DNA of 64,000 nt from Beijerinckiaceae bacterium (GTDB taxonomy: Bacteria > Pseudomonadota > Alphaproteobacteria > Rhizobiales > Beijerinckiaceae), in the NCBI GenBank assembly GCA_947452455.1, contig CANGBX010000004.1, forward strand, positions 1-64,000. The letters are read 5' to 3'. Below, in pieces: positions 10,722-25,242 of this stretch. The notes under the pieces are model-generated. The model was not told the origin of the DNA. It saw only the letters and a list, made by a program, of their open reading frames with translations, and did not search any database. Every line of letters begins with the position of its first letter. Positions within the stretch are counted from its first letter, which is position 1. A program made the position numbers and the translations under genes.

Positions 10722-10788
10722 GCAATCCTCCCCCCATTTTTATTGGCAAAATTAGAGCGGCCTTTGCGCGGTTAAGCAATGGCATAGG

Positions 10789-10825
10789 GAGGGAATTGAA
10801 TAAGCCAAGCGGGATTTGGATTGGC
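10789..10825 (+). repeat. Direct-repeat pair matching the element at 7422-7460
   Basis: GAGGGAATTGAATAAGC (10789) and GCGGGATTTGGATTGGC (10809) are 20 bases apart and closely match the two copies before the FAD monooxygenase. The second copy differs from the one at 7444 by one base in the first 17. The region lies between the divergent class II aldolase operon and the SGNH hydrolase, and either promoter could be the target. Confidence 0.4.
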
Positions 10826-10885
10826 CGCCATGAAAGACTGAGATCAGGCTCTCTATCAAAATCTCAAGCTTTGGGAGAAACGCCC

Positions 10886-11695: not shown

Positions 11696-12712
11696 TTAAT
11701 TGCTTCCCAGAAGCTGTTTGGCCAGATCAACCACTTCGGGTGGTGAATTGATGATTTCGCGGGCGATATGATCAAGCACCGCTCCGTCTGTCGGCTCTAT
11801 TTCCATTTTGAGCTTTTCAGACTCTTGCAAGAAAGCTTTGTCGACCATGGTCGCATCAAACGCTTTGCGCAAAATAGCAACGCGATCTGCGGGTGTGCCT
11901 GGCGGCACAAAGAAAGCGCGAGCGAATTGACCTGAGGCGGAAATCAACCGCACGGCAGCTTTTTCTTTCTCGCCCTGCGCGAGCTCAAGCAAGGTTGGAA
12001 CATTCGGCAAAGTGGGATCACGCGTCAGGCCATCCACGACCAAAACATTGAACGTCTTATTCTCGATATATTGAGGCGCTGAAATCACAACGCTGATCCA
12101 ATTGGCGCCGCGTCCTTGGATCTCGCCCCTCTCCATCGCAAGATTGAGATCGGCTGTGCCATTATAGCCCAGCACAATCTTATATTTTGTACCGAGCAAT
12201 TGGTTAAGCGCAGCAGGAACCGTATAGGTCGGAGAATTTCGCCCTGTGGCACCGATAATCGTTTCCGTCTTTTTCGCTGCTTCTAATGTTTGCGCAGGTG
12301 CCGTGTGCCAAACACCCAGCATATTGCGCAAAGGTGCCATATTGCCGATCCAATGCCACTTCGTGACATCATAACGGCCCTTAACTTCGGCTTCCGTAAT
12401 CTGACCGGTCACATTGGTTTGCTGAACGATGCCGATGGTGAGGCCGTCTTTGGCAACGGAATGTTCCATTTGAACAGCTGTTGCCACGCCACCGCCCACA
12501 CCACCCGCGATCTTGACGATCATTTGCGGCTGGCCGGGAATATAACGCGCCATGTGATTTGCTAGCGTGCGGGCATAAACATCATAAGAGCCGCCGGCAC
12601 CTGCGCCCACCAGCACTGACACGCTTTTGCCGGCATAAAAATCCTGAGCAGCAACGGGGGCTGCGCAAGACAGGAGGGACATTCCGGCAAGACAGACAAG
12701 CCTCAGTGACAT
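11696..12712 (-). CDS. TctC-type periplasmic binding protein, last gene of ten-gene operon
   Basis: From the ATG at 12712 (CAGGAGG 8 bases upstream) the protein has 338 residues. The signal peptide is followed by DFYAGKSVSVLVGAGAGGSYD. The family loop with GGVGGG near residue 70 and the C-terminal helix (EIINSPPEVVDLAKQLL) fit TctC/Bug proteins. It lies 28 bases after the alpha/beta hydrolase stop and shares the operon that starts with the ABC importer. This operon therefore has both an ABC importer and an orphan TctC-type receptor. A second ATG further upstream was rejected because it lacks a ribosome site and would place the signal peptide internally. Confidence 0.9.
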   Translation of the reverse strand: MSLRLVCLAGMSLLSCAAPVAAQDFYAGKSVSVLVGAGAGGSYDVYARTLANHMARYIPGQPQMIVKIAGGVGGGVATAVQMEHSVAKDGLTIGIVQQTNVTGQITEAEVKGRYDVTKWHWIGNMAPLRNMLGVWHTAPAQTLEAAKKTETIIGATGRNSPTYTVPAALNQLLGTKYKIVLGYNGTADLNLAMERGEIQGRGANWISVVISAPQYIENKTFNVLVVDGLTRDPTLPNVPTLLELAQGEKEKAAVRLISASGQFARAFFVPPGTPADRVAILRKAFDATMVDKAFLQESEKLKMEIEPTDGAVLDHIAREIINSPPEVVDLAKQLLGSN

Positions 12713-12740
12713 GATTTCCCTCCTGTGATTGAAGTTAAAC

Positions 12741-13541
12741 TCAGCCGTGGCGCTTGCACCAATCGATGACGATTTGATTGAAGCCATCCGGATCTTCGAT
12801 ATTGGGCAAATGACGCGCCTTCGGAATGGCAAGGAATTCTCCATGCTGGACCGTTTGTGCGATCATCTTGTTTTCTTCCGGATTGGCGCCCGGATCATCT
12901 TCACCGCACAGAACATAAGTCGGTGCAGAAATTTTGGAGAGCTGATCCGTCCATTTGAAATTCTGGATCGCCGCCGCGCAGCCAATGTAACCGGATGGCG
13001 TGCATGAGGCGACAGTCTCGCGAATTTGCTGCCATCGGCCAGGATTACGCGCCTTAAATTCGGGGCTCAGCCAGCGCCCTAAAGTTGTATCGGCAATCGG
13101 CTCCAATGAATTTTCGCGGCGGATATGCACAATGCGATCACCCCAACGCTTTTGCGCATCTGCGGGCGATTGGCTCTGCGTGTCGCACAGGATCAGTGAG
13201 TGCAAGCGCGAGGGATGGTTGATCCCCAGCCCCTGCCCGATCATGCCGCCAATGGATAGACCGCAAAAATGCACTTTCTCAATGCCAAGCCGATCCATGG
13301 CTTCAACCGCGTCATTGACGAGATCATCCATCAGATAAAGACCGGGCGCTGCATCGCTGCCGCCATGCCCGCGCAAGTCAACCCGCAACACACGAAAGCC
13401 TGCTGCGGTGAAGGCTGCAACTTGCTCTGCCCACATTCCCATGTCTGAGGCGAGCGCATGAGCGAAATAAACAACTGGCGCTTTTTCATGACCCACCAGA
13501 TCATAAGCAATGCGCAGGCCGTTGGCTTTTCTGTAAAGCAT
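12741..13541 (-). CDS. Alpha/beta hydrolase (3-oxoadipate enol-lactonase-like)
   Basis: From the ATG at 13541 (AAGGGG upstream) the protein has 266 residues. The alpha/beta hydrolase pattern is complete: the oxyanion loop HALASDMGMW near residue 30, the nucleophile elbow GLSIGG near residue 92, the acid in CGEDDPG near 213, and the histidine in KARHLPNIE near 243. The sequence resembles PcaD lactonases and meta-cleavage hydrolases, which hydrolyse ring-cleavage products in the cytosol. The start lies 10 bases after the FAH-family gene. Exact substrate is not decided by sequence. Confidence 0.9.
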   Translation of the reverse strand: MLYRKANGLRIAYDLVGHEKAPVVYFAHALASDMGMWAEQVAAFTAAGFRVLRVDLRGHGGSDAAPGLYLMDDLVNDAVEAMDRLGIEKVHFCGLSIGGMIGQGLGINHPSRLHSLILCDTQSQSPADAQKRWGDRIVHIRRENSLEPIADTTLGRWLSPEFKARNPGRWQQIRETVASCTPSGYIGCAAAIQNFKWTDQLSKISAPTYVLCGEDDPGANPEENKMIAQTVQHGEFLAIPKARHLPNIEDPDGFNQIVIDWCKRHG

Positions 13542-13551
13542 ATCGCGCCCC

Positions 13552-14415
13552 TTAGGCCTGATGCGCGCGCACCGGCACATCCATGCGGCCGATGAGCGGG
13601 CTTTCCAGCGTGATCACATCACCCGGCTTGACCGGACCCACGCCCGAGCATGTGCCCGTGTAAATCACATCACCCGGATAGAGCGTATAAAACGAGGTCG
13701 CGAATTCAATGAGGCGGACGACGTTGTAAATCAAATAAGCCGTATTGGTTTTTTGGCGCGTCTCGCCATTCACCTTCAGCTCCAGCGGCACATCGGTGGG
13801 ATCGGGTACTTCATCTGCCGTCACCATCCAAGGACCGAGCACGGCATAACCATCGGGTGACTTGCGGAAGGACCGATCTTCCGGACCGCGGATCGTCATG
13901 TCGAGACCCAGCGAATAACCCGCCACATAATTCAGCGCATCTGCCTGTGTGACATTTGTGCATTGCTTGCCGATGACAACCACGAGCTCAAGCTCGTGAT
14001 CCGTGCGACGCTCAGGGAAACGCACCGGCACGCCTTCTGACGGGCCGACCAGCGAGGTCGGCGCCTTCAAGAACAAACCATCGGTCCCAATCTTGGCGGT
14101 ATGCTTGGATCCACCGGCCTGACGGGCGGCTTCCATTTCGATGATGTGATCCTGATAATTTGTGGGAGCCGCAACAATCTTTGGCACGCGCGCCACAGGC
14201 GACAATAGCTTCACGCTCGCTACATCAAGACCCGGTGCTTTTTTGGCAGCTTCCATAAGGCGATCTTTGATCTGCGGAAGAGCCGCAATAACGGCATCAC
14301 ATATCGCCGTATAGGGCGTCTTGGCACGCACTTCTGTCTGGATATCTGTCACATCATGGATCTTGTCGCCGATCACAACACCAAGGCGATCGTCTCCGAA
14401 ACGGCAAATACGCAT
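13552..14415 (-). CDS. Fumarylacetoacetate hydrolase (FAH) family protein
   Basis: From the ATG at 14415 (GAAAGGAAAAG upstream) the protein has 287 residues. The FAH fold is recognisable by its metal and carboxylate-binding segment, RRTDHELELVVVIGK (near 155-168) with its acidic residues, and by the following NYVAGYSLGLDMTIRG. The C-terminal GDVIYTGTCSGVGPVKPGD (near 243-261) completes the active site. Relatives hydrolyse acylpyruvates, hydrate 2-oxopent-4-enoate or decarboxylate 2-oxoacids. In this operon it would act on a ring-cleavage or dicarboxylate product. The 17-base gap to the hydrolase start indicates co-transcription. Confidence 0.92.
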   Translation of the reverse strand: MRICRFGDDRLGVVIGDKIHDVTDIQTEVRAKTPYTAICDAVIAALPQIKDRLMEAAKKAPGLDVASVKLLSPVARVPKIVAAPTNYQDHIIEMEAARQAGGSKHTAKIGTDGLFLKAPTSLVGPSEGVPVRFPERRTDHELELVVVIGKQCTNVTQADALNYVAGYSLGLDMTIRGPEDRSFRKSPDGYAVLGPWMVTADEVPDPTDVPLELKVNGETRQKTNTAYLIYNVVRLIEFATSFYTLYPGDVIYTGTCSGVGPVKPGDVITLESPLIGRMDVPVRAHQA

Positions 14416-14440
14416 GGGCTTTTCCTTTCGTGATTCCGGC

Positions 14441-15838
14441 CTAGGCCTGCAAGGCCTTTGCAATGTCCTGCGCGCTGGTGAGCCTTTCGGCATTCATGAC
14501 GAGATCGATGATCTTGTCAGTCTTCTCACGCGAGAATTGCGTTTCTGACAATTTGCGGAATTTTGCGATCACATCCTCTTCGGTCGCGAATTTATGCTCG
14601 CTACCGCGCGGGGCCTCAACCGTCTCTTCCTGCACATCACCCTGTTTGAAGCGAATTTCCACACGCACCTTGTGACGGAAGCGCGAACCGAGTGCCGTAA
14701 TGGCTGGGTCTTCCACCACGTCAACAAGCTTGGAGACTTCGATACGTTCCGGATCAGCCACTTTGTCTTCGGTGAATTGCGCAACGAAGGCATCGCCTTC
14801 GAGCAAATAGGTGGCGATGCAATAGGGCAGATTGAGCTGCGCCGAGGTGAGCCCCTGCGGCTTATAAGGCCAGCCCACATGATCAGCTGTTACGCGTGAA
14901 CCATGAACGATGATCTTTTCAACATCAGCCAAAGTGAAGGGACGGCGCGCCTGAATGTCGCGAATGCCATCGAGCGTTGTGTGGTTCGAGCCCACGCATG
15001 AATAGAATTTGAGTGCGATTTGCATCGTCTCAAAGCGTTCGCCCAAACCATCTGACAAGGCCGCCATATTGAAGCGATCTGTCGAGCGCGAGAAGGTCGT
15101 GCAAAAGCCGCCATATTCGCTCTCCAGCACATCTTGAATGCCGGTGAAGCCTTTCTTGGCCAGCAATGCACCATAATAGCCTGACTGCGCCGAGCGGCCG
15201 GCATGCATGCGCTTGACCATAGAGCCATATTGCGCGGCCATGAGACCTGCAGCCTGCGTGCCGCCAATGCCCAGAGCATTCACTGTCTGGCCTGCATCCA
15301 GACGCATGGCGCGTGCAGAACCTGCAGCAGCCGAGAAGACGCCGAGCGTGGCGCCCGAATGCCAGCCCTGGCCGATATGTTCTTGCCCCATGCAAATGCC
15401 AACACGCGGGCCGATTTCATAACCTGCCACTGTCGCAGCCAAAAACTCTTTGCCGGAGATGGAAGCATCTTTCTCAAGCACGGCGAAAATGCCGGGCAAA
15501 GTGACAGCGCCCACATGCAGCACACCAACGCGGTGCACATCATCAAGCTCGAAGCTTTGCACCAGAGAGCCATTGATCAGCACAGCATGCGGCGAAGACA
15601 GCTTTTCTTTCGTGCCCCAAACAGAGGAATCAGCCGTCTTGTCCACTTCGCCGAGCGTTTCACGCAGAATGCGGCTCCATGGCAGATTGATGCCGTAAAT
15701 CGCGCAGCCCAGTGAATCGAGCGTCAGTAATTTGATGCGCTTCAGCACATCGGCTGGAATCCGCTCATAAGTAAAACCGCTGACAAATTCTGCCATCGCG
15801 CGGGTGTGTGGATTATCACCATTATGGGACTTGGCCAT
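14441..15838 (-). CDS. MmgE/PrpD family protein (first of a tandem pair of dehydratase-like genes)
   Basis: The 465-residue protein is of MmgE/PrpD type, the family of 2-methylcitrate and related hydro-lyases and isomerases. It has the N-terminal helical domain (LKRIKLLTLDSLGCAIYG near residues 32-49) and the family segments DDVHRVGVLHVGA and GWHSGATLGVFSAAA, then MKRMHAGRSAQSGYYGALLA near residue 205 with its conserved basic residues. CVGSNHTTLDGI lies near 285. It differs from the second PrpD protein, so they are not a recent duplication. It starts 18 bases after the stop of that gene. The substrate is not predicted. Confidence 0.9.
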   Translation of the reverse strand: MAKSHNGDNPHTRAMAEFVSGFTYERIPADVLKRIKLLTLDSLGCAIYGINLPWSRILRETLGEVDKTADSSVWGTKEKLSSPHAVLINGSLVQSFELDDVHRVGVLHVGAVTLPGIFAVLEKDASISGKEFLAATVAGYEIGPRVGICMGQEHIGQGWHSGATLGVFSAAAGSARAMRLDAGQTVNALGIGGTQAAGLMAAQYGSMVKRMHAGRSAQSGYYGALLAKKGFTGIQDVLESEYGGFCTTFSRSTDRFNMAALSDGLGERFETMQIALKFYSCVGSNHTTLDGIRDIQARRPFTLADVEKIIVHGSRVTADHVGWPYKPQGLTSAQLNLPYCIATYLLEGDAFVAQFTEDKVADPERIEVSKLVDVVEDPAITALGSRFRHKVRVEIRFKQGDVQEETVEAPRGSEHKFATEEDVIAKFRKLSETQFSREKTDKIIDLVMNAERLTSAQDIAKALQA

Positions 15839-15856
15839 GATTTTTCCTTTTCTTGT

Positions 15857-17191
15857 TTAGCAAAGCCAGTCGATCTGGCGTTCATCTTCGATTTTAAGAA
15901 GCCGCGCAAAAATGCCGGTGGCATCGCCCGCATAATCACGTGTCATAATATCAAATCGCTCGCGCAATTGCGTTGGTGTAAGCGGCATGCCGGGCGTACC
16001 AGGGAATTCAGCTGTTTCCTGTTCAAAGACGCGTCCATCTTTCAGCGTCAGAACAGAGCGCGTCATCCAATCAGAATGGCTTTCACGGCCATCACTCACA
16101 ACACTGATATTCTTGGCCAGAGTCATCACTGTTGCATCTTGCAATTTCGATGGATCGAAACTGGCAGGATCAGCAGCATTGCCTGTCAAAGCGCAAGCCA
16201 GCGAGAAGGGGATCGAATAATTCGCTAGTGCCGGATCACTCGGCGCCTGATTGCCATTAAGCTCAGCCATGCGGCTCGTGCCATGCACAATAACGCTCGC
16301 TACTTGATCAGCTTTGAGGCCAATTTCGCGCTGCCAGCATTCAGCTGCGTAAATCGCTGTATGCGCAGTGATGTGGCACGGATAGCGTTTCAAACAGATT
16401 TTCAGCGTCTCGAAATCTTCGCCCAATCCACCTGTGAGCTTGGCGAGATCTTGCTTGCCACAAAACGTGGCGAGAAATCCGCGCTTGCCTTCGAGCGATT
16501 CATGCGGACCTTCATATCCACGCTCTGCCATCTGCGCAGCAAAGACGCCATTTTGTGCCGCGCGTCCGATATGCAGGCGCTTGACCATGGCGCCCTGTCC
16601 TTCATAGGCAAATTGCATCACGCCCGCTGAAAGCGAAACTGCGATGCCGAAGGCAGAATTCATGCGGCTCGCATCAAGCCCGTAGATTTTGCCTGCTGCC
16701 ACCGCTGCACCAAACGGGCCTGTCAGCCCCGGTGCATGAAATCCGCGCGGCTCTGCGGAATGCAGCGTGGCCGCACCAATGCGCATCATCACTTCAAAGC
16801 CCGCAATAATAGCCTCCAGCAAAGCGCGGCCTGAGGCGTTTCGCTCTTGTGCGGCAGCCAAAGCGGCAGCTACGACAATGGCGCCAGGATGCACACCGGC
16901 GCCGGGCTTGCGCAGGGAATCCAGTTCCAACGCATGGGCCAAAAGACCGTTGGCAAACGCCGCTTGTTCAGCTGCAAGCCTGGCATCCGGAATACCGATG
17001 AGGCGACAATTGCCTTGCGATTGCCGCGCTTGTGCCACAGCCAACCCGCCCCATGTTGTCTTTTGCCCTCGTACCGCAATGGCAAATGTATCAATGAGGC
17101 ACTCACGCGCGCGCGCAATGACATGCGCAGGCACATGATCGAGTGAAAAGTCAGCAGCAAATTGAGCGAGCTTTGCGCTTTCGTGAGCCAT
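15857..17191 (-). CDS. MmgE/PrpD family protein (second of the pair)
   Basis: The 444-residue MmgE/PrpD protein has the family marks ELDSLRKPGAGVHPGA near residue 92, a glycine-rich RGFHAPGLTGPFGAAVAAG segment and MVKRLHIGRAAQNGVFAAQMA near residue 197. YPCHITAHTAIYAAE near 265 is the counterpart of CVGSNHTTLDGI in the neighbouring protein. Differences are large enough for different substrates or a hetero-complex. It starts 4 bases after the CapA-like gene and ends 18 bases before the other PrpD gene. The start at 17191 fits the family N-terminus, though no strong ribosome site is visible. Confidence 0.9.
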   Translation of the reverse strand: MAHESAKLAQFAADFSLDHVPAHVIARARECLIDTFAIAVRGQKTTWGGLAVAQARQSQGNCRLIGIPDARLAAEQAAFANGLLAHALELDSLRKPGAGVHPGAIVVAAALAAAQERNASGRALLEAIIAGFEVMMRIGAATLHSAEPRGFHAPGLTGPFGAAVAAGKIYGLDASRMNSAFGIAVSLSAGVMQFAYEGQGAMVKRLHIGRAAQNGVFAAQMAERGYEGPHESLEGKRGFLATFCGKQDLAKLTGGLGEDFETLKICLKRYPCHITAHTAIYAAECWQREIGLKADQVASVIVHGTSRMAELNGNQAPSDPALANYSIPFSLACALTGNAADPASFDPSKLQDATVMTLAKNISVVSDGRESHSDWMTRSVLTLKDGRVFEQETAEFPGTPGMPLTPTQLRERFDIMTRDYAGDATGIFARLLKIEDERQIDWLC

Positions 17192-17195
17192 GAAT

Positions 17196-18239
17196 TCACG
17201 CCTGCTTCAAGACGATTTCATTGCCATCACGGGCAATCTGCGTTCCCATATCCCGAGAGCGCTTTTCAATATCTTTGAACTCGCTTTCTTCATGGGACAG
17301 ATCACAAACATAGCTTTCATTCTGCTCATTGTGGCGTACGAATTCAAAAGCTGCCCGTTCAATTCCGGCATCTCCGAATTGGACTTTGGCCAGCATGCCG
17401 ATCCAGTCACCATGGGTGATGCCGCCATGACCTGTATGGAAGGAGAAGGAACCAAGCCCATAATAAATCGGCTTGCCCTTATACATTTCGACACCCAGCG
17501 AATAATGCGGGCCATGGCCGATGACGACATCCGCGCCGCCATCAATCGCCGCATGTGCGATTTCTTGCATATAATCCAGTACATCCTTGTGCAGACCCCA
17601 ATGGAAAGAGCAAACAACAATATCAGCTTGCTTACGGGCTTCCGCGAGATCTGCCTGGAACTTTTCGAGATAGGCTTTATCGGCCCATGTCAAAATATAG
17701 GGCGGAATACCAGGCCGGTTCATCGGCGGAATTTCGCGCTTCATTTTATACATGGGTACCTGATAGGCCGTATGGCCACGAATGACCGCAATGCCAGCAG
17801 AATGTTTTGTCGCTTCGTGATTGGTCGCCCAATAGACTGAGCTGCGCTGCAAAAACGCGATCTTCTTGCCGTTGCGCTCGATGATCGCGGGCTTGCGTGC
17901 GGCTGCATCATTGGCGCCGGCACCTGTGTGCAGAAAGCCGGCACGGTCGAGATAGGCAATCGATTCATTGATCGCCTGCTCGCCATAATTGACATTATTG
18001 GCAAGCCCGACGACTTCGATGCGGGCCTGTTTCAAAGCTTTTTCTGTCACATCCGGATCAGAGAAAAAGCCCTCAACGCTCGTTGAGCCCTCATTGAGGC
18101 GCGACGTCAGGCAGCATTCGAGATTTGAGAAAACGAGATCGGCCTTGTCAAAAGTGCCGCGCACTTTGCGAAACGGCACATTTGCATCGGTGACGTTCAT
18201 CAGGTTCACGTCGCCAGTCAGCATCAGGGTGAAGGTCAT
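17196..18239 (-). CDS. CapA-family metallophosphatase-like protein
   Basis: The ATG at 18239 (AAAGAAAAGG upstream) gives 347 residues without a signal peptide, so the protein is expected to be cytosolic. It matches PGA_cap/CapA proteins: TGDVNLM (residues 8-14), VFSNLECCLTS near 40, LANNVNYGEQ near 75, SFHWGLH near 205 and VVIGHGPHYSLGVEMY near 232. In most family members the third block is LANNH, with a metal-binding histidine that is Val here. An altered or lost phosphatase activity is possible. CapA itself is tied to poly-gamma-glutamate capsule synthesis; a catabolic operon is an unusual setting. Confidence 0.85.
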   Translation of the reverse strand: MTFTLMLTGDVNLMNVTDANVPFRKVRGTFDKADLVFSNLECCLTSRLNEGSTSVEGFFSDPDVTEKALKQARIEVVGLANNVNYGEQAINESIAYLDRAGFLHTGAGANDAAARKPAIIERNGKKIAFLQRSSVYWATNHEATKHSAGIAVIRGHTAYQVPMYKMKREIPPMNRPGIPPYILTWADKAYLEKFQADLAEARKQADIVVCSFHWGLHKDVLDYMQEIAHAAIDGGADVVIGHGPHYSLGVEMYKGKPIYYGLGSFSFHTGHGGITHGDWIGMLAKVQFGDAGIERAAFEFVRHNEQNESYVCDLSHEESEFKDIEKRSRDMGTQIARDGNEIVLKQA

Positions 18240-18252
18240 CCTTTTCTTTCCC

Positions 18253-19254
18253 TTAATCAGCAATTTCATTCAGGCCGGGGACGACCAGTGAGGAGATGGG
18301 GATCATTTTTTCCATATCTTTGATCGCCACCATATCGCGCATCATATTTTCCAATGGCTTGCGATGTATGGTGCTGGTGCGTGCAAAAAACTCGATGCGA
18401 CGCAGGAAATCATATGAGTCAGCTATTTCCTTACGATCTCCCTTCGAGGCTTCGGTCAGAATATCAATCGCTTCTTCACGGTTCTTATCATCATAGAACC
18501 AGGCCACAGCCTCATCGACGGCTGTATTGATCTCCCGCGCTTCTTTCATATTGGCTTTGGCCCAGCGCTGCGAGACCTGCATGCCGGTCTGTGGCAGGTC
18601 GGGAGCAAAATCGCGTACGAGACCCAGATCTTTGAACCCATTCTTGATGGCCGTGAAATTAAACGGCGGCACCAACATGGTCGCATCCACGGAACCCGAT
18701 TGCATAGCGGCAAAGCGCGCACCGGTTGCACCAATCACGATAATATCGAAATCGGAATCTTTCAGGCCTGTCTGCGCCATCACACGATCAAAATAGATCT
18801 TGTTAATGTCGCGCAATCCACCAAGGGCTACTTTCTTGCCCTTCAGATCTTCAAGCTTGGTGATGTTCTTGCCACCAATCATCACATAATTGGTTGTCTG
18901 GCCCATAATCCGCATGATGGCGACAGGTGCACCTTTTTCAACCGCATGCAGCGGCTCGGCCAGACCATTCAGCGCGATCATATCAATCGAGCCTGCAGTT
19001 AATTGCTGCACGAGGCCCGGCGCTGTGGGGACAAAGACAACGTCATGCTTAATGCCATGACGGGAAAACAGGCCTTTCTTTTGTGCAATCAGGAACGGCC
19101 AAAGGCCAGATGTCCAAGAGCCCAAAACGCCTGTGACCACGACTTTTTCAGCCGCCGCCGCTGAAGGTGCCGCAACAGGCAAAAGAGACAAAGCCGCGGC
19201 GCAGAGGCCTGCAGCGAGCGTGCGATGCAAGGCTTTACGATTTGTCCATGCCAT
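18253..19254 (-). CDS. ABC transporter substrate-binding protein (NMT1/THI5-like, SsuA/TauA type)
   Basis: The ATG at 19254 has GGGAGGAG at good spacing; an ATG six bases upstream is too close to it. The 333-residue protein has a signal peptide (cut after PSAAAA). The NMT1-type domain follows with VLGSWTSGLWPFLIAQKKGL, the LTAGSIDMIALNG segment near 90 and LKGKKVALGG near 143. Such receptors feed ABC importers for taurine, sulfonates, nitrate, hydroxymethylpyrimidine or phthalate. It follows the ATPase and permease genes of the same operon by 27 bases. A second receptor-like protein opens the operon. Confidence 0.9.
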   Translation of the reverse strand: MAWTNRKALHRTLAAGLCAAALSLLPVAAPSAAAAEKVVVTGVLGSWTSGLWPFLIAQKKGLFSRHGIKHDVVFVPTAPGLVQQLTAGSIDMIALNGLAEPLHAVEKGAPVAIMRIMGQTTNYVMIGGKNITKLEDLKGKKVALGGLRDINKIYFDRVMAQTGLKDSDFDIIVIGATGARFAAMQSGSVDATMLVPPFNFTAIKNGFKDLGLVRDFAPDLPQTGMQVSQRWAKANMKEAREINTAVDEAVAWFYDDKNREEAIDILTEASKGDRKEIADSYDFLRRIEFFARTSTIHRKPLENMMRDMVAIKDMEKMIPISSLVVPGLNEIAD

Positions 19255-19287
19255 GACCATCTCCTCCCGTAATCGGCTTGTCGCCTG

Positions 19288-20061
19288 TTAGATTTTCTCT
19301 ACCAGCACGCTTTCGCGCACATCATTCTCGATCAATCGCCAGATGCGATCAACCAATGCCACAAATTCGGGGCGGCGCTTGGTTGCCATATTGCGCGGGC
19401 GCGGCAAATCAATCCGAATATCTTCCAGCAACCGACCGGGGCGGCGTGCAAAAACCAGCACACGATCAGCCAAAAATACGGCCTCATCGATTTGATGGGT
19501 GACGAAGAGCACGGTCTTGCGACCTTCTTCCCAGATACGCTGCAATTCTGTCTGCATGATTTCGCGTGTTTGCGCATCAAGCGCCGAAAACGGCTCGTCC
19601 ATTAGCAAGACTTTGGGGTCGATAGCGAGCGCACGCGCAAGATTGACGCGCTGGCGCATGCCACCTGAGAGCTGACGCGGGTGATAATTTTCAAACCCCG
19701 CAAGCCCTACAAGCTCCAGTAATTTGCGCACACGTGCCGTCTCTGTTGCGTCGAGCCGCCCGGCAAGCTCGAGACCCACAACTGTGTTCTCCATGACGGT
19801 GCGCCAAGGCAGAAGGCTGTCTTGTTGAAAGACAAAGCCGCGGTCACGACCCGGGCCTTCGATTTTCTTGTCCGCTAAATAGACTGCACCTTCGTCAGCC
19901 GCCTCGAGACCGGCAACGGTGCGCAAGAATGTCGTCTTGCCGCAGCCTGAGGGGCCAACGAGGGCTACAAATTCGCCGTCTTCAACGGTGAGATTGACAT
20001 CGGCCAAGGCCTGCAAATCGCCAAACCATTTTGAAAGACCAGATGAGACGAGCTTTGACAT
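19288..20061 (-). CDS. ABC transporter ATP-binding protein (SsuB/TauB type)
   Basis: From the ATG at 20061 the protein has 257 residues. Walker A is GPSGCGKTT near residue 37, the Q-loop is in FVFQQD, the signature is LSGGMRQR near 137, Walker B is VLLMDEPFSALD near 157 and the H-loop is in VTHQIDEA near 192. This is the nitrate/sulfonate/taurine class of importer ATPase. It sits between permease and binding protein genes in a usual importer arrangement, 7 bases after the permease stop. An upstream ATG at 20112 overlaps the permease and was not chosen. Confidence 0.94.
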   Translation of the reverse strand: MSKLVSSGLSKWFGDLQALADVNLTVEDGEFVALVGPSGCGKTTFLRTVAGLEAADEGAVYLADKKIEGPGRDRGFVFQQDSLLPWRTVMENTVVGLELAGRLDATETARVRKLLELVGLAGFENYHPRQLSGGMRQRVNLARALAIDPKVLLMDEPFSALDAQTREIMQTELQRIWEEGRKTVLFVTHQIDEAVFLADRVLVFARRPGRLLEDIRIDLPRPRNMATKRRPEFVALVDRIWRLIENDVRESVLVEKI

Positions 20062-20068
20062 GATGACC

Positions 20069-20854
20069 TTAATCCTTCGTCCAAGGAACAAGGCGCGCCT
20101 CAAGCCAAGCAAAGGCGCTGTTCATGGCAATACCGCTAGCAGCCAGAATACTCACAGCCGCAAATAATTCTGGCATATTAAAACTATCGGCTGATGCACC
20201 GATCAGGCGGCCAAGGCCCAGGCGCGAGCCAAACAATTCGGCAACCACGACACCGATCAAACCGCGCCCAATACCAAGCTTGAGCCCAGCCAGAATGAAT
20301 GGCGTAGCTGATGGCAGTGAGACCTTGAAGAAGAGCTGACGCGGTGTCGCGCCAAAGGCCCGCATCATTTCGAGATAGCGCTCACTCGTCGAGCGGATTC
20401 CGGCTTCTGTATTGATGATGACCGCAAAAACGACCAGCAAAAATACGATGACAATTTTCGACCAGACACCAATGCCAAGCCAAAGAATAAAGAGCGGACC
20501 AAGCGCAACGGTAGGTGTGGCATAAAAGCCGGAAATCCAAGGTTGCAGCCAATGTTTGGCAAATGCACTCGTCGCGATCAGCAGTCCGACGCAAATGCCG
20601 ATCACCGCCGCAATGGCATAACCTGCGAAAAACTCAATGCCGCTCGTATAGACATGCTTCCAGAGTTCGCCTGTTTCAATCAGGCGCATGAGCGCTTTCA
20701 CAACTTGCAGAGGTGAGGCAAGAAACAAAGGATTGGCGATGACATAGTCCGAAATCATCTGCCAAACAAAAAGCCCGCTCGTCACTGACAGAAGCGAGAT
20801 CTGCCAAGGCGCGAGCCCTTGTTTTTTGACAACAGACTGCGCCTTGCCGCTCAT
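20069..20854 (-). CDS. ABC transporter permease (SsuC/TauC type)
   Basis: The 261-residue inner-membrane protein has about six membrane helices. The cytoplasmic EAA loop is near residues 165-185 (ERYLEMMRAFGATPRQLFFK, then SLPSATPFILAGLKLGIG), matching the BPD_transp_1 family of taurine/sulfonate/nitrate importers. It overlaps the preceding receptor-like gene by 4 bases, which indicates translational coupling. With the ATPase and NMT1-type receptor it forms a complete importer whose substrate is unknown. Confidence 0.94.
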   Translation of the reverse strand: MSGKAQSVVKKQGLAPWQISLLSVTSGLFVWQMISDYVIANPLFLASPLQVVKALMRLIETGELWKHVYTSGIEFFAGYAIAAVIGICVGLLIATSAFAKHWLQPWISGFYATPTVALGPLFILWLGIGVWSKIVIVFLLVVFAVIINTEAGIRSTSERYLEMMRAFGATPRQLFFKVSLPSATPFILAGLKLGIGRGLIGVVVAELFGSRLGLGRLIGASADSFNMPELFAAVSILAASGIAMNSAFAWLEARLVPWTKD

Positions 20855-21774
20855 TTTGTCCCGCCTTGCAAAAGCTTCATTGCAGCCGTGTGGAACGAGA
20901 GATCGTAATAATCTTCTGGCTGGCCGCAGCGACTTTGCGGATCAAAGAAGCGGCGCAAATTAAGGGTGTTCTCAACAGCCCCACGGTCCATGGCAGCTGT
21001 CGGATCAAGACCATATTTCGGCACACGCAACAATCGCACGGCTTCATCGGCCATGGACGGATCAATCTTCAATTTGCGGATACAAATGTCGGCGCACAGA
21101 GCCTGATTGGCAGGATCAAGTACGAAAGACAGGCACTCCACATAAGCTGCAATATAGCGAATGGTGAGTTCCTGATGGGAATCAAACCAAGAACGCAGAC
21201 CAAAAGCGGACCCTGCCTGATAGGGACCGATGAAATCGGTCGTGTCGCCCAGCGAGCGCATGCCCATGGCTTTGGTCTCGAGCGAATAAGGCACGTTGAG
21301 AACAGCCGATGATTTGACCGGATTGTTTTTCAGGGCCTCCACGCGCAATTCACCGCGCCCGACCGCCACAACTTCATAATCGGCGTCCCTCACCAAGCCC
21401 TTATCCGCAAAAATGCGATAGGCCTGCAAAGCAAAGGCTGTGTCCGGTGCATCGACAAAGAGGCGCCCGCCTTTGATCTCTTCGATCTTTTGAATGTCCG
21501 GCGTGACAATCAGCTCATTCATGCCCGGATCGCCGCCCATCACAGCGACAACATCGACCCCGTCATCATCGCGCATCGACACTGCATTATCGATGGCGAC
21601 ATGGACGATCTGGAAGTCGCCATTGGCGATACCATCGCGCTGGGCGCGGGAAGAATTGGTGGAGACAAGCTCAAGCGCAATGCCGCGCCGCTCGAAAATG
21701 CCCTGCGCCAGGCCTGCATGGAAGGGAAGCGCCTTGGCGGTCGGGTTACTATTGACGATGAGACGGTCAGCCAC
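20851..21774 (-). CDS. ABC-transporter-receptor-like protein without a signal peptide, first gene of the ten-gene operon
   Basis: The protein has 307 residues from a GTG at 21774 (VADRLIVNSNPTAKALPFHA). It is related to nitrate/sulfonate/NMT1 substrate-binding proteins (GLAQGIFERRGIALELV, DFQIVHVAIDNAV, DGVDVVAVMGG). No hydrophobic signal is encoded, so either it is cytosolic or the real 5' end is elsewhere. Upstream, GGGAGGAAAG and ATG at 21841 form a strong start in another frame that ends 8 bases into this gene. The in-frame TTG at 21813 is a weaker alternative. This gene overlaps the permease by 4 bases. Confidence 0.8.
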   Translation of the reverse strand: MADRLIVNSNPTAKALPFHAGLAQGIFERRGIALELVSTNSSRAQRDGIANGDFQIVHVAIDNAVSMRDDDGVDVVAVMGGDPGMNELIVTPDIQKIEEIKGGRLFVDAPDTAFALQAYRIFADKGLVRDADYEVVAVGRGELRVEALKNNPVKSSAVLNVPYSLETKAMGMRSLGDTTDFIGPYQAGSAFGLRSWFDSHQELTIRYIAAYVECLSFVLDPANQALCADICIRKLKIDPSMADEAVRLLRVPKYGLDPTAAMDRGAVENTLNLRRFFDPQSRCGQPEDYYDLSFHTAAMKLLQGGTK

Positions 21775-21841
21775 GGGTTCCAACCCCGCTTTTCTTTTGT
21801 GTGCACTGCACAAAAAGAGCCCTTGGCTGAATGGCCTTCAT
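21767..21841 (-). CDS. Candidate 24-residue leader peptide (or frameshifted true start) of the ten-gene operon
   Basis: An ATG at 21841 follows the best ribosome site in the operon (GGGAGGAAAG). The reading frame (MKAIQPRALFVQCTQKKSGV and four more residues) ends at TGA 21769-21767, which overlaps the GTG start at 21774 of the receptor-like gene. It may be a leader that couples translation into the operon. Alternatively, a single-base frame error or mutation has separated the natural start from the receptor gene. Confidence 0.4.
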   Translation of the reverse strand: MKAIQPRALFVQCTQKKSGVGTRG

Positions 21842-21917
21842 CTTTCCTCCCGCCACTTTCATGATGGACAGCGCAGAGCGCGCCGCCTAGTTTATTGGTC
21901 AGGGGGAAGTCTCGTCT

Positions 21918-21944
21918 TTTCAGTGGCAACAAGCCAATCTGAAA
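21918..21944. promoter_or_regulatory. Inverted repeat, candidate operator of the LysR regulator
   Basis: TTTCAGTGGC (21918-21927), a five-base spacer, then GCCA-AT-CTGAAA (21933-21944) form an almost perfect inverted repeat. It lies between the divergent LysR gene (start 21996) and the ten-gene operon (start near 21841). The location and the dyad are as expected for a LysR-type activation site. A second pair, ATTGG at 21894 and CCAAT at 21934, overlaps it. Confidence 0.45.
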
Positions 21945-21995
21945 CGGACGCGATCTCATAAAATTTCTGCACCGGGGACAAAAGCGTGCGCCGCC

Positions 21996-23249
21996 ATGAG
22001 TGAGCGAATCCCGAGTTTTCGGCACTTGCGCGTCTTTGATGCGATTGCGCAGTGCAAGAACTTCAGCCGTGGCGCAGCCGCTGTCCATTTGTCGCAACCA
22101 GCCGCGACCCAGGCCATTCTCAATCTCGAAAAATGGGCCGAGGCCTCGCTTTTTTACCGCAATAAGGGCGGCACCTATCTCACAGAAGAAGGTGGCGTGC
22201 TGCAAGAAGCCGTTCAGCGCATGTTTGATCGCGTTGAAAAAACACTGGCCAGCGAGGTCTTTGAAGGCTCGACAGAGAAGGCCCGTTTTGCCTCCTCGCG
22301 CATCAAATCCTCGCATGTCAAAGTTTTGCGTGCGATCTCGGAGTTTTCCTCCCTCGAAATGGCAGCCAATTCGCTCAAACTCTCGCGCCCGGCGGTGCAA
22401 CGCATTGCGCGTGATTTTGAAATGAGCCTTGGCATTCAGCTGTTTGAGCGCACGCCGCGGGGTGTTTGTGCCACGCCGCTGGGCTCACGTATCAGCCAAT
22501 CCTTCCAACAAGCCGCTTTTGAGCTATCGGCTGCCCTTGATGAAATTGCCCTTCTGCAGCAGCGTTTTTCGATGCAGCTCTTCATCGGCGCGCAGCCTTT
22601 GTGCTCAACCTCGCTGCTTGCGGCCAGCATCAATGACCTTCTGGTTATCTATCCGCAAATGCAGGTGCGCATTATTGAGGGCTCCTATCATTATCTTCTG
22701 AACGAACTCCAGAATGGCCGCATCGACATGATGTTCGGGGCGTTAAAGCGCCCTGATACTGTCGAGAATGTGCGCGAAATTCCCCTCTTCCAAGAGCCCT
22801 ATTGTATTGCTGCGCGGATGGATCATCCGTTGATGAGCAAGCACAGAGTGACACTCAAAGACATTGCGGCTTGTGATTGGGTTCTCTCAGGCCCGAGCAC
22901 GCAACGCCGCCGTACATTCGAGCTGATGTTCAAAAATTCACCTGTGCGCCCGACCACACAGATCGAAGCCACTTCCGTTTCCGCACAGATCGCATTTCTC
23001 GCCTCCAGCAATCGCCTAGCCTTGCTGACGCCGCTTGAACTCGAGTTCGATCCGCATATGGGCAAGATCGGCAAGCTCGATTATGACACCGGCATTACCC
23101 GTATTCCGGATGGATTGACCGTTCGCACCGAATGGAAGCCTACAGGCGTGCAAGGGCGCTTCGTCGCATGCCTGCGCAGCCGCATCGTCGATATGCAGCG
23201 CCTGCCTGAGGATCTGCCGGACGATTTGCAGCTCAGCATGAGCGAGTGA
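21996..23249 (+). CDS. LysR-family regulator with two tandem HTH domains
   Basis: The 417-residue protein is about 110 residues longer than ordinary LysR regulators because it has two DNA-binding domains. The first is at residues 6-66 (FRHLRVFDAIAQCKNFSRGA, then HLSQPAATQAILNLEKW). The second is at 104-165 (SHVKVLRAISEFSSLEMAAN, then LSRPAVQRIARDFEMSLGIQ). A typical effector-binding domain follows from about 195 (MQLFIGAQPL). It is transcribed divergently from the ten-gene operon and lies upstream of the VOC and PrpB-like genes, so it probably controls both sides. The start at 21996 fits the HTH1 N-terminus; no strong ribosome site is seen. Confidence 0.92.
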   Translation: MSERIPSFRHLRVFDAIAQCKNFSRGAAAVHLSQPAATQAILNLEKWAEASLFYRNKGGTYLTEEGGVLQEAVQRMFDRVEKTLASEVFEGSTEKARFASSRIKSSHVKVLRAISEFSSLEMAANSLKLSRPAVQRIARDFEMSLGIQLFERTPRGVCATPLGSRISQSFQQAAFELSAALDEIALLQQRFSMQLFIGAQPLCSTSLLAASINDLLVIYPQMQVRIIEGSYHYLLNELQNGRIDMMFGALKRPDTVENVREIPLFQEPYCIAARMDHPLMSKHRVTLKDIAACDWVLSGPSTQRRRTFELMFKNSPVRPTTQIEATSVSAQIAFLASSNRLALLTPLELEFDPHMGKIGKLDYDTGITRIPDGLTVRTEWKPTGVQGRFVACLRSRIVDMQRLPEDLPDDLQLSMSE

Positions 23250-23373
23250 CCCGCCTCATTCGGATTAGGCTCAGACTCATTGACTTTTCGCTATAGCGCC
23301 TCGCTTTTTGCGGAGACTCCGGCCATTCTGTAAAAGAGCAAAATCACCGGGCAGCGCCCGCAAGGAGGACATC

Positions 23374-24321
23374 ATGACCGAGATCCGTGTCAACGGCCTG
23401 CGCGGGGTCGAACTCGCCGTCTTCAATCTCAAGGAAACAGCCGATTTCTACGCGCAAGCCTGGGGCTTGTCGGAAGTCGCCTCCGCCAATGGCACGGCTT
23501 ACATGCGCGCTGCCGGCAATGAACATCACGTGCTGAGCCTTCATGAGGCCCCGCGCGCCGGACTTATTGCAATCAATTTCTCCGCACCCTCGCGCATCGC
23601 GGTTGATGGCCTGCATGCGAAAGCCAAAGCCATGGGCTGCGAGATTGTCTCAGGCCCAGCCGAGCTCGCAGCGATTGCAGGTGGCGGCTATGGCTTCTCG
23701 GTCAAAACGCCCGAAGGCCAGACGCTGAATATTTCAGCCGACGTCGTCCAGCATGGCGCAGGCAATTTTCATGATCATTCGCGCCCGACCAAGCTGTCGC
23801 ATGCCGTGCTCAATGTCGCTGACGTCGATAAGCAGAGGAACTTCTTTATCGATGTGCTCGGCTTCCGCCTGACAGATTCAACAGCACGCATGGATTTCGT
23901 GCGCTGCTCGTCCTACCACCACTCCATCGCACTTGCCCGTGCGCAGGGCGCCGGCCTCAACCACATGGCCTATGAAGTTGAAAACTTCGACGGCCTGATG
24001 CGCGGTGCTGGCCGCATGAAAAAGCATGGCTTTAAAATCGGCTGGGGTGTTGGCCGCCACGGGCCTGGCAATAATCTCTTCTCATACTTCATCGAGCCGA
24101 ATGGTTTCGTCACCGAATATACGGCGGAAGTCGATTATATTGACGAAGCCAAGCATATTGTCGGCACGCCGGATTACTGGGCCAAGATCATGAATGGCCC
24201 CGATCGCTTCGGCTTGGCTGATCCGTCGCCCGAATTGCGCGATGCGATGGCTGGCAAAATTCTCGATGAACGCAACAAGGCTTGCGAAGAGATCATCTCG
24301 AAGAAACTCGCCTCCGCTTAA
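23374..24321 (+). CDS. VOC-family protein of extradiol ring-cleavage dioxygenase type
   Basis: The ATG at 23374 follows AAGGAGG by 5 bases, giving 315 residues. It has two VOC repeats (about residues 8-118 and 138-260), as in catechol 2,3-dioxygenase/BphC-type enzymes. In the second repeat the likely Fe(II) ligands are the histidine in LSHAVLNV near 142, the one in LNHMAYEV near 195 and the glutamate in VTEYTAEVD near 247. Such enzymes cleave catechols or other vicinal diols next to the hydroxyls, in the cytosol. The gene is 124 bases after the LysR gene and 24 bases before the PrpB-like gene. The substrate cannot be told. Confidence 0.9.
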   Translation: MTEIRVNGLRGVELAVFNLKETADFYAQAWGLSEVASANGTAYMRAAGNEHHVLSLHEAPRAGLIAINFSAPSRIAVDGLHAKAKAMGCEIVSGPAELAAIAGGGYGFSVKTPEGQTLNISADVVQHGAGNFHDHSRPTKLSHAVLNVADVDKQRNFFIDVLGFRLTDSTARMDFVRCSSYHHSIALARAQGAGLNHMAYEVENFDGLMRGAGRMKKHGFKIGWGVGRHGPGNNLFSYFIEPNGFVTEYTAEVDYIDEAKHIVGTPDYWAKIMNGPDRFGLADPSPELRDAMAGKILDERNKACEEIISKKLASA

Positions 24322-24345
24322 CAAACAAGAAAAACGGAACACAAC

Positions 24346-25242
24346 ATGTATCTTCTGGGCGAATCCCATCCCTCAGCCCCGGCGGGGCATCGCTTTCGCG
24401 ACATGGTGCGCAAAGGTGAAATTCTCGGTATTCCCGGCGCGCATAATGGCTTGTGCTCATTGCAGGCCAAGCGGGCTGGCTTCAAAGCCGTCTATCTCTC
24501 GGGCGCAGCCGTTTCAGCATCCATGGGCCTGCCTGATCTTGGCATTCTCACCATCGAAGATATGGCGTTTTACATTCGCCAAGTCTCGCGCGCGTCCGGC
24601 CTGCCTGTGCTTGTGGACGGCGACACCGGCTATGGCGAAGCGCTCAATGTGATGAATATGGTGCGCTGCTTTGAAGATGCCGGCGCTGGCGCGGTGCATC
24701 TCGAAGATCAGATTTTGCCTAAAAAATGCGGCCATTTGAGCGACAAGAAACTTGCCAGCAAAGATGATATGGCTGCCAAAGTAGCGGCGGCCGCGCGTGC
24801 ACGCCGCCATCTTTACATTATTGCCCGCACGGATGCGGCTGCCAGTGAAGGATTGGATGGTGCGGTTGAGCGCGCCAAAGCCTACATCGCCGCAGGTGCT
24901 GATGCGATTTTCCCTGAAGCACTGACCGATGAAAGCATGTTCCGCGAATTCGCGCGCCGTATTGATGCGCCGCTTCTCGCCAATATGACGGAATTTGGCC
25001 GCACGCCCTTCTTTACCAAAGAGCAATTCCGCGAGATGGGCTATCAAATGGTCATTTGGCCGGTAAGCTCTCTGCGCATCTCTGCAAAGGCCTCGGAATC
25101 GATCTATGCGACAATCCGCGACAAGGGCTCAACAGAAACCTTGCTGCCGCAAATGCAAACACGCGCGGAACTTTATGATCTGATCGGCTATCATGATTTT
25201 GAATCTCTGGACCAATCGATTGCCAAATCGATTATTCCCTGA
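24346..25242 (+). CDS. Isocitrate lyase/PEP mutase family lyase, methylisocitrate-lyase-like (PrpB-like)
   Basis: This 298-residue protein is close to PrpB throughout. It has LVDGDTGYGEALNV near 85-98, LEDQILPKKCGHLSDKKLAS near 122-141 with the catalytic Lys-Lys-Cys-Gly-His, ARTDAAASEGLDGAV, FPEALT and a LLANMTEFGRTP loop. PrpB cleaves 2-methylisocitrate to pyruvate and succinate. Because it follows an extradiol dioxygenase-like gene rather than prpC, it may cleave another substituted 2-hydroxy diacid. The catalytic residues for retro-aldol lyase activity are all present. A terminator follows directly. GGAA before the ATG is weak. Confidence 0.92.
   Translation: MYLLGESHPSAPAGHRFRDMVRKGEILGIPGAHNGLCSLQAKRAGFKAVYLSGAAVSASMGLPDLGILTIEDMAFYIRQVSRASGLPVLVDGDTGYGEALNVMNMVRCFEDAGAGAVHLEDQILPKKCGHLSDKKLASKDDMAAKVAAAARARRHLYIIARTDAAASEGLDGAVERAKAYIAAGADAIFPEALTDESMFREFARRIDAPLLANMTEFGRTPFFTKEQFREMGYQMVIWPVSSLRISAKASESIYATIRDKGSTETLLPQMQTRAELYDLIGYHDFESLDQSIAKSIIP

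Follow-up and report, generated by a model that had tools for sequence, protein, structure and literature searches.

The window, i.e. the whole 64,000-nucleotide stretch of DNA analyzed here, lies on contig 4 of an assembly of a Beijerinckiaceae bacterium (3.05 Mb, 13 contigs, 95.6% complete). It carries what looks, from its sequence, like a cluster of about fifteen genes that would take up an aromatic acid, open its ring, and pass the products into central metabolism by an unusual exit. An earlier note on this DNA had described a run of ten minus-strand genes (11696-21813) opposite three plus-strand genes, and all thirteen are at the positions, and of the families, that it gave. From left to right, the minus strand encodes a TctC-type solute-binding protein (11696..12844, start more likely about 12712; PF03401, 38.9 bits), an alpha/beta hydrolase resembling the 3-oxoadipate enol-lactonase PcaD (12741..13580; TIGR02427, PDB 2xua), an FAH-family, maleylpyruvate-hydrolase-like hydrolase (13552..14493, start more likely about 14415; PF01557), two enzymes assigned by family match to MmgE/PrpD, named here PrpDa (14441..15838) and PrpDb (15857..17191), and a CapA/PGA_cap-like protein (17196..18269; PF09587). 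These are followed by an NMT1/SsuA-type ATP-binding cassette (ABC) solute receptor with a leader peptide (18253..19260; family match) and by three proteins recognized by Pfam, an ABC transporter ATPase (19288..20112), an ABC transporter permease (20069..20854), and a leaderless protein with a solute-binding protein (SBP) fold (20851..21813, start more likely about 21777). The plus strand encodes a LysR regulator with two matches to the HTH_1 helix-turn-helix (HTH) domain (21996..23249), a VOC-family type I extradiol dioxygenase-like enzyme identified by Pfam, PDB relatives, and residues (23308..24321), and a PrpB-like enzyme of the methylisocitrate lyase family (24346..25242; TIGR02317).

The tight packing of the minus-strand run was also borne out. 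Distances between the listed open reading frames (ORFs) range from −104 to +27 bases, and no gap exceeds 28 bases when homologue-supported starts are used (by our reading ∼12712 for the TctC gene, ∼13541 for the hydrolase, and ∼14415 for FAH). The run is presumably transcribed as a single unit. The divergent intergenic region (21814..21995, 182 bases between listed ORFs) contains blocks conserved in L007 and L008, the two relatives aligned, and probably holds the LysR operator/promoter. Here and below, L numbers denote fetched loci of relatives and G numbers their genomes, with G000 the window's own.

On the other hand, the interval assigned to the system by the earlier note (11696-25242) is too short, because comparison with relatives indicates that the cluster probably reaches left to about 7555. 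An FAD monooxygenase with an FAD_binding_3 domain (FMO; 7555..8763, plus strand) probably belongs to it, as judged by its PDB relatives and by its neighbors in relatives. It adjoins the cluster in L007, L008, and L009 (77-93% identity), and in three Burkholderiaceae genomes its homologues (62-64%) are accompanied by those of VOC and the hydrolase. The best PDB relatives of FMO, at 172-190 bits, are an FAD-binding protein, NicC, tropone 2-monooxygenase, vanillate 1-hydroxylase, and 4-hydroxybenzoate decarboxylase. By our reading of the alignment, H209, Y213, and H294 match the positions taken as NicC H211, Y215, and H302, whereas the position taken as NicC H47 is Asn and the Cys202 region differs; the active-site roles of these NicC residues are those that we assume. 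Next comes a second TctC-type protein (8827..9843, minus strand; PF03401, 28.1 bits), relatives of which (72-88%) lie beside FMO in L007, L008, L009, L106, and L108, which is weak evidence in a genome with 81 TctC matches. Around the FMO-TctC pair, the stretch read in L106 lacks the block of genes described below, and L108 is a short contig.

A class II aldolase/adducin-fold protein (AldII; 9885..10721, minus strand), assigned by family match and bearing an N-terminal leader peptide, completes the extension. Relatives were found in L007, L008, L108, L081, L114, and L116, and in the first three of these loci they stand beside FMO and TctC. The best PDB relative of AldII is Mlr6791 (134 bits versus 46 for the next), which we take to be a pyridine-dicarboxylate decarboxylase, and AldII is possibly a decarboxylase as well. 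A class II aldolase beside one two-HTH LysR relative (Roseibium) is 41% identical to AldII. As assessed by hydropathy of the first 45 residues, a leader is present in six of seven AldII proteins, the window's included, and in the seventh (L108) only from a downstream ATG; Burkholderiaceae homologues also have one. This measure is unspecific, since FMO, which is not exported, reaches 2.07 via its Rossmann strand, and leaders were therefore also judged by eye. To our knowledge, an exported member of the class II aldolase/adducin fold is unusual. Finally, a DUF4886-like protein (10661..11683, plus strand; PF16227, below cut-off) is of uncertain membership; a relative lies between TctC and AldII in L008 and elsewhere in L009 and L011. 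Taken together, these comparisons suggest that the cluster starts further left with FMO and AldII, although some carriers do not show the two together.

A scan with the CapA-like gene yielded 118 relatives, of which the best 80 loci were kept. Among these 80, the nearest named relatives are four Beijerinckiaceae metagenome-assembled genomes (MAGs; 83-90%) and two Hyphomicrobiales MAGs (71%), whose freshwater setting we read from isolate names. The genes NMT1-CapA-PrpDb-PrpDa-FAH keep the same order and strand in six loci (L006-L011; CapA 71-90%), with the alpha/beta hydrolase next after FAH in all five that are not truncated. This five-gene block is absent from the other 74 of the 80 fetched loci, with L081 containing parts of it rearranged. 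Synteny confined to this strain, the outcome that the earlier note had named as fatal to its idea, thus did not occur, as the block is present in L006-L011 and parts of it in Paraburkholderia. The association with a dual-HTH LysR, for which that note had proposed a search, holds in part, in L007, L009, and L010 by Pfam and in L008 and L011 by length, but not in L081, where LysR has one HTH. LysR, VOC, and PrpB homologues lie inside the same 21-kb loci in L007-L011 in differing orders and orientations, and in L009-L011 the LysR/VOC/SBP/ABC/PrpB genes surrounding the block are rearranged. PrpB is 83-92% identical in L007-L011, whereas VOC is 87-93% identical in L007 and L008 and 39-40% in L009-L011. 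PrpDa is 83-95% identical in L006-L011 and 62-66% in L031, L073, L081, and twice in G597, whereas PrpDb is 68-84% identical in L006-L011 and 41-42% in L081 and L090. Relatives of the TctC protein at 11696-12844 occur in L007, L008, and L010.

Outside this group, eight enzyme genes recur, rearranged, in the betaproteobacterium Paraburkholderia sp. SG-MS1 (L081/L105), with FAH, FMO, VOC, hydrolase, PrpDa, CapA, and PrpDb together, then AldII in L081. A second locus of this strain (L109) has FMO, hydrolase, VOC, and a PrpF-like gene. Two other genomes, G757 and G801, contain FMO twice, hydrolase, VOC, FAH, AldII, a PrpF-like gene, and a PrpB homologue (37%), with an MFS transporter near FMO, and one FMO copy in G757 is flanked by two tannase/feruloyl esterase genes and a PcaR/PobR-like regulator. 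Overall, an FMO homologue of at least 62% identity was found in nine genomes (the window's included), and in seven of them it shares a stretch of about 20 kb with alpha/beta hydrolase and VOC genes, where FAH, AldII, or PrpF genes occur as well. Close homologues are rare: PrpDa is present, at E 1e-130, in 2/347 genomes of the order, the window's genome among them; FMO in 3/299 genomes of the family of G640, with G640 itself counted; and the CapA-like gene, at E 1e-30, in 4/289 genomes of the class, again counting the window's. Among plasmid records, PrpDa homologues below 60% identity were found in six, and no FMO relative at E 1e-70. Neighboring genes were called by a crude script, and some mis-calls, e.g. 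in L011 and L081, were corrected by later comparison; the names fumarate-reductase-like flavoprotein, amidase, dihydroxyphthalate-decarboxylase-like, and LeuC/LeuD are our reading of translated starts rather than hidden Markov model assignments.

The enzymes predicted to open and cleave the ring retain residue patterns linked to activity, as does PrpB. In VOC, the metal triad H165/H219/E270 together with H204/H205, H251, and Y260 is invariant in 11 rows, two of which are one protein. We assume the usual roles for the triad and the second-shell His/Tyr residues, as for the active residues of hydrolase, FAH, and PrpB. VOC scores below all the equivalog cut-offs listed (catechol 2,3-dioxygenase, 110.3 of 320.2 bits; HpaD, 100.6 of 321.4 bits), and its best PDB relative, 3b59 (197 bits), is labelled only as glyoxalase/dioxygenase family. 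The hydrolase has S109/D229/H257 conserved and reaches 230.5 bits with TIGR02427, below the equivalog cut-off of 255.85, and FAH, whose best PDB relative is the maleylpyruvate hydrolase 6jvv (173 bits), has H116/E119 and E167/E169/D198 conserved. The conserved synteny and the complete VOC extradiol residue set back the proposal of the earlier note that an imported acid undergoes extradiol-type ring opening and product cleavage. So do the Burkholderiaceae relatives: their transporter scores nearest to the aromatic acid/H+ symport family, although under its cut-off, and tannase/feruloyl esterase genes are neighbors in one of the three genomes. As a separate observation, a LigAB-type protocatechuate 4,5-dioxygenase-like pair stands beside FMO in L009 (19101-20343; L107, 7480-8722), and only there among the loci tested.

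The nearest PDB relatives of PrpDa are iminodisuccinate (IDS) epimerase and cis-aconitate decarboxylases, and the two PrpD proteins fall far under the PrpD equivalog cut-offs (best scores, 38.0 and 55.4 of 950 and 30.6 of 458 bits). PrpB, on the other hand, scores 426.7 bits with TIGR02317 against a cut-off of 354.4, has 4iqd as PDB relative, and has a conserved KxCGH loop. The 2-methylcitrate synthase PrpC belongs to cit_synth_II. Genome-wide, in an assembly 95.6% complete, there is one citrate synthase match, at 322.5 bits, below the cit_synth_II cut-off of 421.3, and PrpB therefore probably works outside the standard methylcitrate cycle. The propionate/methylcitrate cycle was dropped as a candidate, since no second citrate synthase was found in the genome. 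Eleven further genomes, several of them incomplete, were compared. Six are from Alphaproteobacteria and contain the block or PrpDa; one citrate synthase match was found in each of G597, G634, G635, G636, and G637, and none in G633. G638 has two matches and G757 six (partly fragments). None of these matches is over the cut-off, which was passed only in G801, G640, and G639. PrpDa homologues adjoin PrpB homologues in G597 (both copies) and in L073, an arrangement that fits a polycarboxylate module, and two of these three loci have a fumarate-reductase-like flavoprotein by our reading. A PrpF-like gene stands next to PrpB in L007, L109, L114, and L116, and PrpF-family genes lie at three other places in the window's genome. 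Elsewhere in the window (42763-45712), by our reading of the translations, a second PrpB-like gene (32% identical to the first) comes after a pair of LeuC/LeuD-like dehydratase genes, a set resembling a hydratase and lyase module for a branched malate. In a Burkholderiaceae locus (L117, 5516-8553), two MmgE/PrpD proteins whose N termini look to us like export signals lie near tannase/feruloyl esterase.

The CapA-like protein had been described as a phosphatase; by sequence and fold it is nearer to the peptide epimerase MslH. The sequence search returned MslH entries only (three distinct sequences), including the D11A and H295N mutants. With an AlphaFold model (pLDDT 88.8, pTM 0.90) as query, Foldseek gave MslH as best match (E 3e-27, TM 0.78 by query length and 0.64 by target length), with phosphatase-fold proteins next at E 2e-7 and weaker. 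By our count, H255 aligns with MslH H295 and is invariant in 80 of 80 rows, and D20 is the likely counterpart of MslH D11, the printed alignment beginning after D20. The alignment (L025 dropped, 39 rows folded) was built from a set gathered with two peptide patterns, one of them ANNVN, and conservation of that motif is therefore partly built in. Across 84 CapA neighborhoods, a PrpD-family gene lies within four called genes in 19 and a TctC-like gene in 27. A phosphatase or capsule role was rejected on the ranking of MslH and on these recurring neighbors. The fold model suggests instead that the protein may act as an epimerase on a small acid. A second context of the CapA family was seen in L002 and L031, where its genes stand beside a 293-residue protein without Pfam match (L031 copy tested) and Asp/Glu-racemase-like genes.

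The earlier note had singled out the TctC receptor as a distinctive part of the operon, which proved uninformative, as PF03401 has 81 matches in this 3.05-Mb genome (68 over cut-off, by our count). TctC was dropped as evidence for a tricarboxylate substrate for the same reason. So many matches amount to a large expansion of such solute-binding proteins for a genome of this size (compare PMC5994714, on Rhodoplanes). Two further genes in the window (50148-50888 and 60142-60858, plus strand), which we read as Asp/Glu-racemase- or arylmalonate-decarboxylase-like, each lie beside a TctC-like gene. The NMT1 receptor is distantly like THI5. The protein at 20851-21813, previously called receptor-like, has no hydrophobic leader in any of six orthologues (window plus five), which argues against that label. 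It was modeled with a best mean pLDDT of 84.6 (five models, 55 to 85), and Foldseek ranked 3qsl first, then a CmpBCD regulatory domain, receptors, and THI5. Because this protein is kept beside the L010 block where the permease is not, its role may go beyond transport, and the model makes it a candidate cytoplasmic sensor/regulatory domain or enzyme.

The two halves of the LysR regulator align to each other with 26% identity over 66 residues, and two HTH_1 domains are also present in L007, L009, L010, and six of six distant relatives. At E 1e-50, two-HTH homologues occur in at least 6 of the 289 genomes from the class, counting the window's; this is a lower bound because at most six LysR candidates were scored per genome. 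Matches are also present in 117 plasmid records, in 116 of them covering 80% or more of the query, so the architecture is not new. Such relatives are common beside aromatic ring-cleavage genes. In a set of plasmid loci chosen from the 117 records for lineage spread rather than at random, and with L150, a wider view of L143, counted once, 15 of 24 distinct loci have at least one gene of the oxalomesaconate pathway near LysR. L142 is counted by a PIG-L gene at its edge, L128 by tblastn, and the near-copies L133 and L137 by a class III dioxygenase. These linked loci include an annotated gallate dioxygenase cluster and a cluster of fld genes. No such gene was found near LysR in L129, L131, L136, L139, L140, L141, L143, L145, and L151, whereas one is present in four of six genome loci, for which just 1.5 kb of either flank was read. 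The tree places the window regulators in a clade of their own, within an 11-row set (98/94) that has one linked row (L138, on a long branch), whereas the other side of the tree has 25 rows, 18 of them linked. Their tree neighbors L129 and L143 have genes that we name, partly by our own reading, amidohydrolase-like, HpcH-like, and SBP-fold, and L143 also has VOC and FAH genes, 23 and 33% identical to those of the window.

The reading that we prefer, with slightly better than even credence, is that of a cluster under LysR control for the uptake and breakdown of a hydroxylated aromatic carboxylic acid, with an extradiol pathway draining through PrpD, CapA, and PrpB. The exported class-II-aldolase-fold enzyme would trim a carboxyl group outside the cytoplasm, the TctC and/or NMT1-ABC receptors would import the acid, and FMO would hydroxylate it (ipso, probably with decarboxylation) to an ortho-diol. 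VOC would then open the ring in extradiol fashion, the PcaD-like and FAH hydrolases would split the opened chain, a branched polycarboxylate would be dehydrated, isomerized, or epimerized by the PrpD-family pair and the MslH-like CapA, and its cleavage by PrpB would yield a C3 keto acid plus a C4 acid. From the observed gene set, its conservation, the residue sets, and the single citrate synthase match, we infer the substrate class, the order of the reactions, and every reaction. Several points weigh against this scheme. An ipso-decarboxylating FMO is hard to reconcile with a downstream tricarboxylate unless the substrate has extra carboxyls. Gene content is also uneven: the MAG G637 (L011) carries the block, and no FMO above 35% was found in it; FMO is on a different contig from the block in G636 and on an 8.1-kb contig in G632; AldII is not in the L009, L010, and L011 loci; and the L010 block lacks an adjoining permease and has an ATPase of 44% identity at the locus edge. 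In Burkholderiaceae, VOC is only 33-40% and FAH only 34-35% identical to the window's, no PrpB match was seen in L081, where the LysR near FMO has one HTH, and neither PrpDa nor CapA is near FMO in G757 and G801. Because of these differences and the distant PrpB, the Burkholderiaceae pathway may differ. The genome also has, elsewhere, one LigB match and three intradiol-type matches, which makes ordinary protocatechuate an unlikely substrate; its degradation was rejected on these matches and on the lack of any window match to LigAB representatives. Our wider proposal is tentative and, in our view, rather doubtful: an undescribed pathway common to freshwater Alphaproteobacteria and Burkholderiaceae, combining VOC opening of a hydroxylated aromatic acid, exit via PrpD-type hydratase/isomerases, an MslH-like CapA epimerase with a small acid as its substrate, a methylisocitrate-lyase-type enzyme freed from propionate metabolism, and a periplasmic class-II-aldolase-fold decarboxylase.

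A narrower version of the preferred scheme, which we consider unlikely, is a 4-oxalomesaconate (OMA)-type route, in which VOC opens a trihydroxybenzoate-like (gallate class) ring directly to a C7 tricarboxylate, a PrpD hydratase and the PrpB lyase replace GalB/LigJ and GalC/LigK, and PrpF replaces GalD where present. The company of the two-HTH LysR in gallate dioxygenase and lig/fld clusters and in the 15 linked plasmid loci speaks for it, and Rhizobium Q54 and two Thioclava loci join VOC, PIG-L, CHA aldolase, and OMA tautomerase genes; however, the window VOC is only 21-24% identical to theirs, and representatives of OMA tautomerase, LigK, PIG-L, LigA, LigB, and LigI have no tblastn match in the window. 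The tannase genes around the G757 copy and the PrpF-like genes by PrpB in the four loci named above would also fit, but the PrpF of G757 scores as PrpF (732.6 bits) and not as OMA tautomerase (266.6 against a cut-off of 440). One study reports that gallate use by A. niger needs a salicylate-hydroxylase-like FAD monooxygenase, cites earlier proposals of aconitates as intermediates, and describes growth on gallate after deletion of 17 ring-cleavage genes picked by three domains, VOC not included (PMC10512348). In the window, however, this route leaves a decarboxylating FMO without a role, and it was lowered to a rival because the tree puts the window regulator outside the linked group.

That the locus holds two modules merely sharing place and inducer, one for a tricarboxylate (PrpDa, PrpDb, CapA, and PrpB) and one for an aromatic compound (FMO, VOC, hydrolase, and FAH), seems to us rather improbable. 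In L031, L073, and G597, PrpDa homologues of 62-66% do have no FMO or VOC homologue near them, and the CapA family is found in many contexts, but FAH, hydrolase, PrpDa, PrpDb, and CapA share one order in the window and L007-L011, and the two sets, PrpB apart, come together again, rearranged, in L081. Least probable is an N-heteroaromatic or vitamin B6-like route, in which FMO acts on a pyridine carboxylate, by ring opening or hydroxylation, and fragments are freed by the alpha/beta hydrolase, as in nicotinate or pyridoxine degradation. NicC is among the closest PDB relatives of FMO, yet the pyridine ring-opening MHPCO scores about 60 bits to FMO versus 172-190 for the six best. The nearness of AldII to Mlr6791, the distant THI5 likeness of the NMT1 receptor, and the company of the L031 PrpDa and CapA homologues (a molybdopterin-binding dehydrogenase-like gene, an Asp/Glu racemase-like gene, and, by our reading, an amidase) would agree with such a route. 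On the other hand, the extradiol residues of VOC suggest an ortho-diol, tannase genes accompany the FMO relatives in G757, and the annotation of the cluster genes, without a search by name, showed nothing of the NicX or NicF type.

The cluster is real, conserved, and, as predicted from its genes, catabolic; its single parts are all of known families, and their combination is new as far as our searches reach. The literature search, with subscription journals mostly outside its scope, found no description of this gene set in titles or abstract openings. If the preferred scheme holds, freshwater bacteria that are represented here solely by metagenome assemblies would have a further way of opening the rings of aromatic acids of plant or humic origin. 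The scheme would also give roles to four vaguely annotated families (MmgE/PrpD, CapA-like, leaderless SBP-fold, and exported class II aldolase) and turn the vague label "MmgE/PrpD family" into a testable reaction.

Each of the known systems shares some features with the cluster. The gallate/protocatechuate 4,5-cleavage clusters (gal, lig, fld), for which PMC12314914 gives canonical syringate/gallate steps as a comparison, have a two-HTH LysR, an extradiol dioxygenase (VOC in some), and, in several loci, TTT receptors. The window differs in having no match to LigA, LigB, PIG-L, LigK, LigI, or OMA tautomerase (these six representatives were searched in the window, the rest of the genome for LigB and PrpF only), in its PrpD/PrpB/CapA/FAH/PcaD-like genes, and in a regulator from a separate clade. 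The 2-methylcitrate cycle (prpBCD) shares a PrpB over the methylisocitrate lyase cut-off and PrpD-family proteins, whereas here the single citrate synthase is below the cit_synth_II cut-off and the PrpDs are far below theirs. Mesorhizobium degrades vitamin B6 by a pathway encoded by mlr67xx genes. Like the cluster, it combines an FMO, a class-II-aldolase-type protein, and an alpha/beta hydrolase, but the window FMO is not MHPCO-like, its class-II-aldolase-type protein has a leader, and no B6-type dehydrogenase or lactonase genes were noticed in the family annotation of the cluster, where no dedicated search was made. The lasso-peptide epimerase MslH is the best sequence and fold match of CapA, and the GHGPH His aligned with MslH H295 is kept, whereas identity is 20-21% and the NNH-type motif is lost (ANNVN in the window protein). 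Finally, type I extradiol meta-cleavage (catechol 2,3-dioxygenase, HpaD, and BphC) shares the two-domain VOC, the H-H-E triad, the His/Tyr second shell, and the hydrolase and FAH partners, whereas the window VOC stays below the equivalog cut-offs and the candidate exit enzyme is a PrpB-type lyase.

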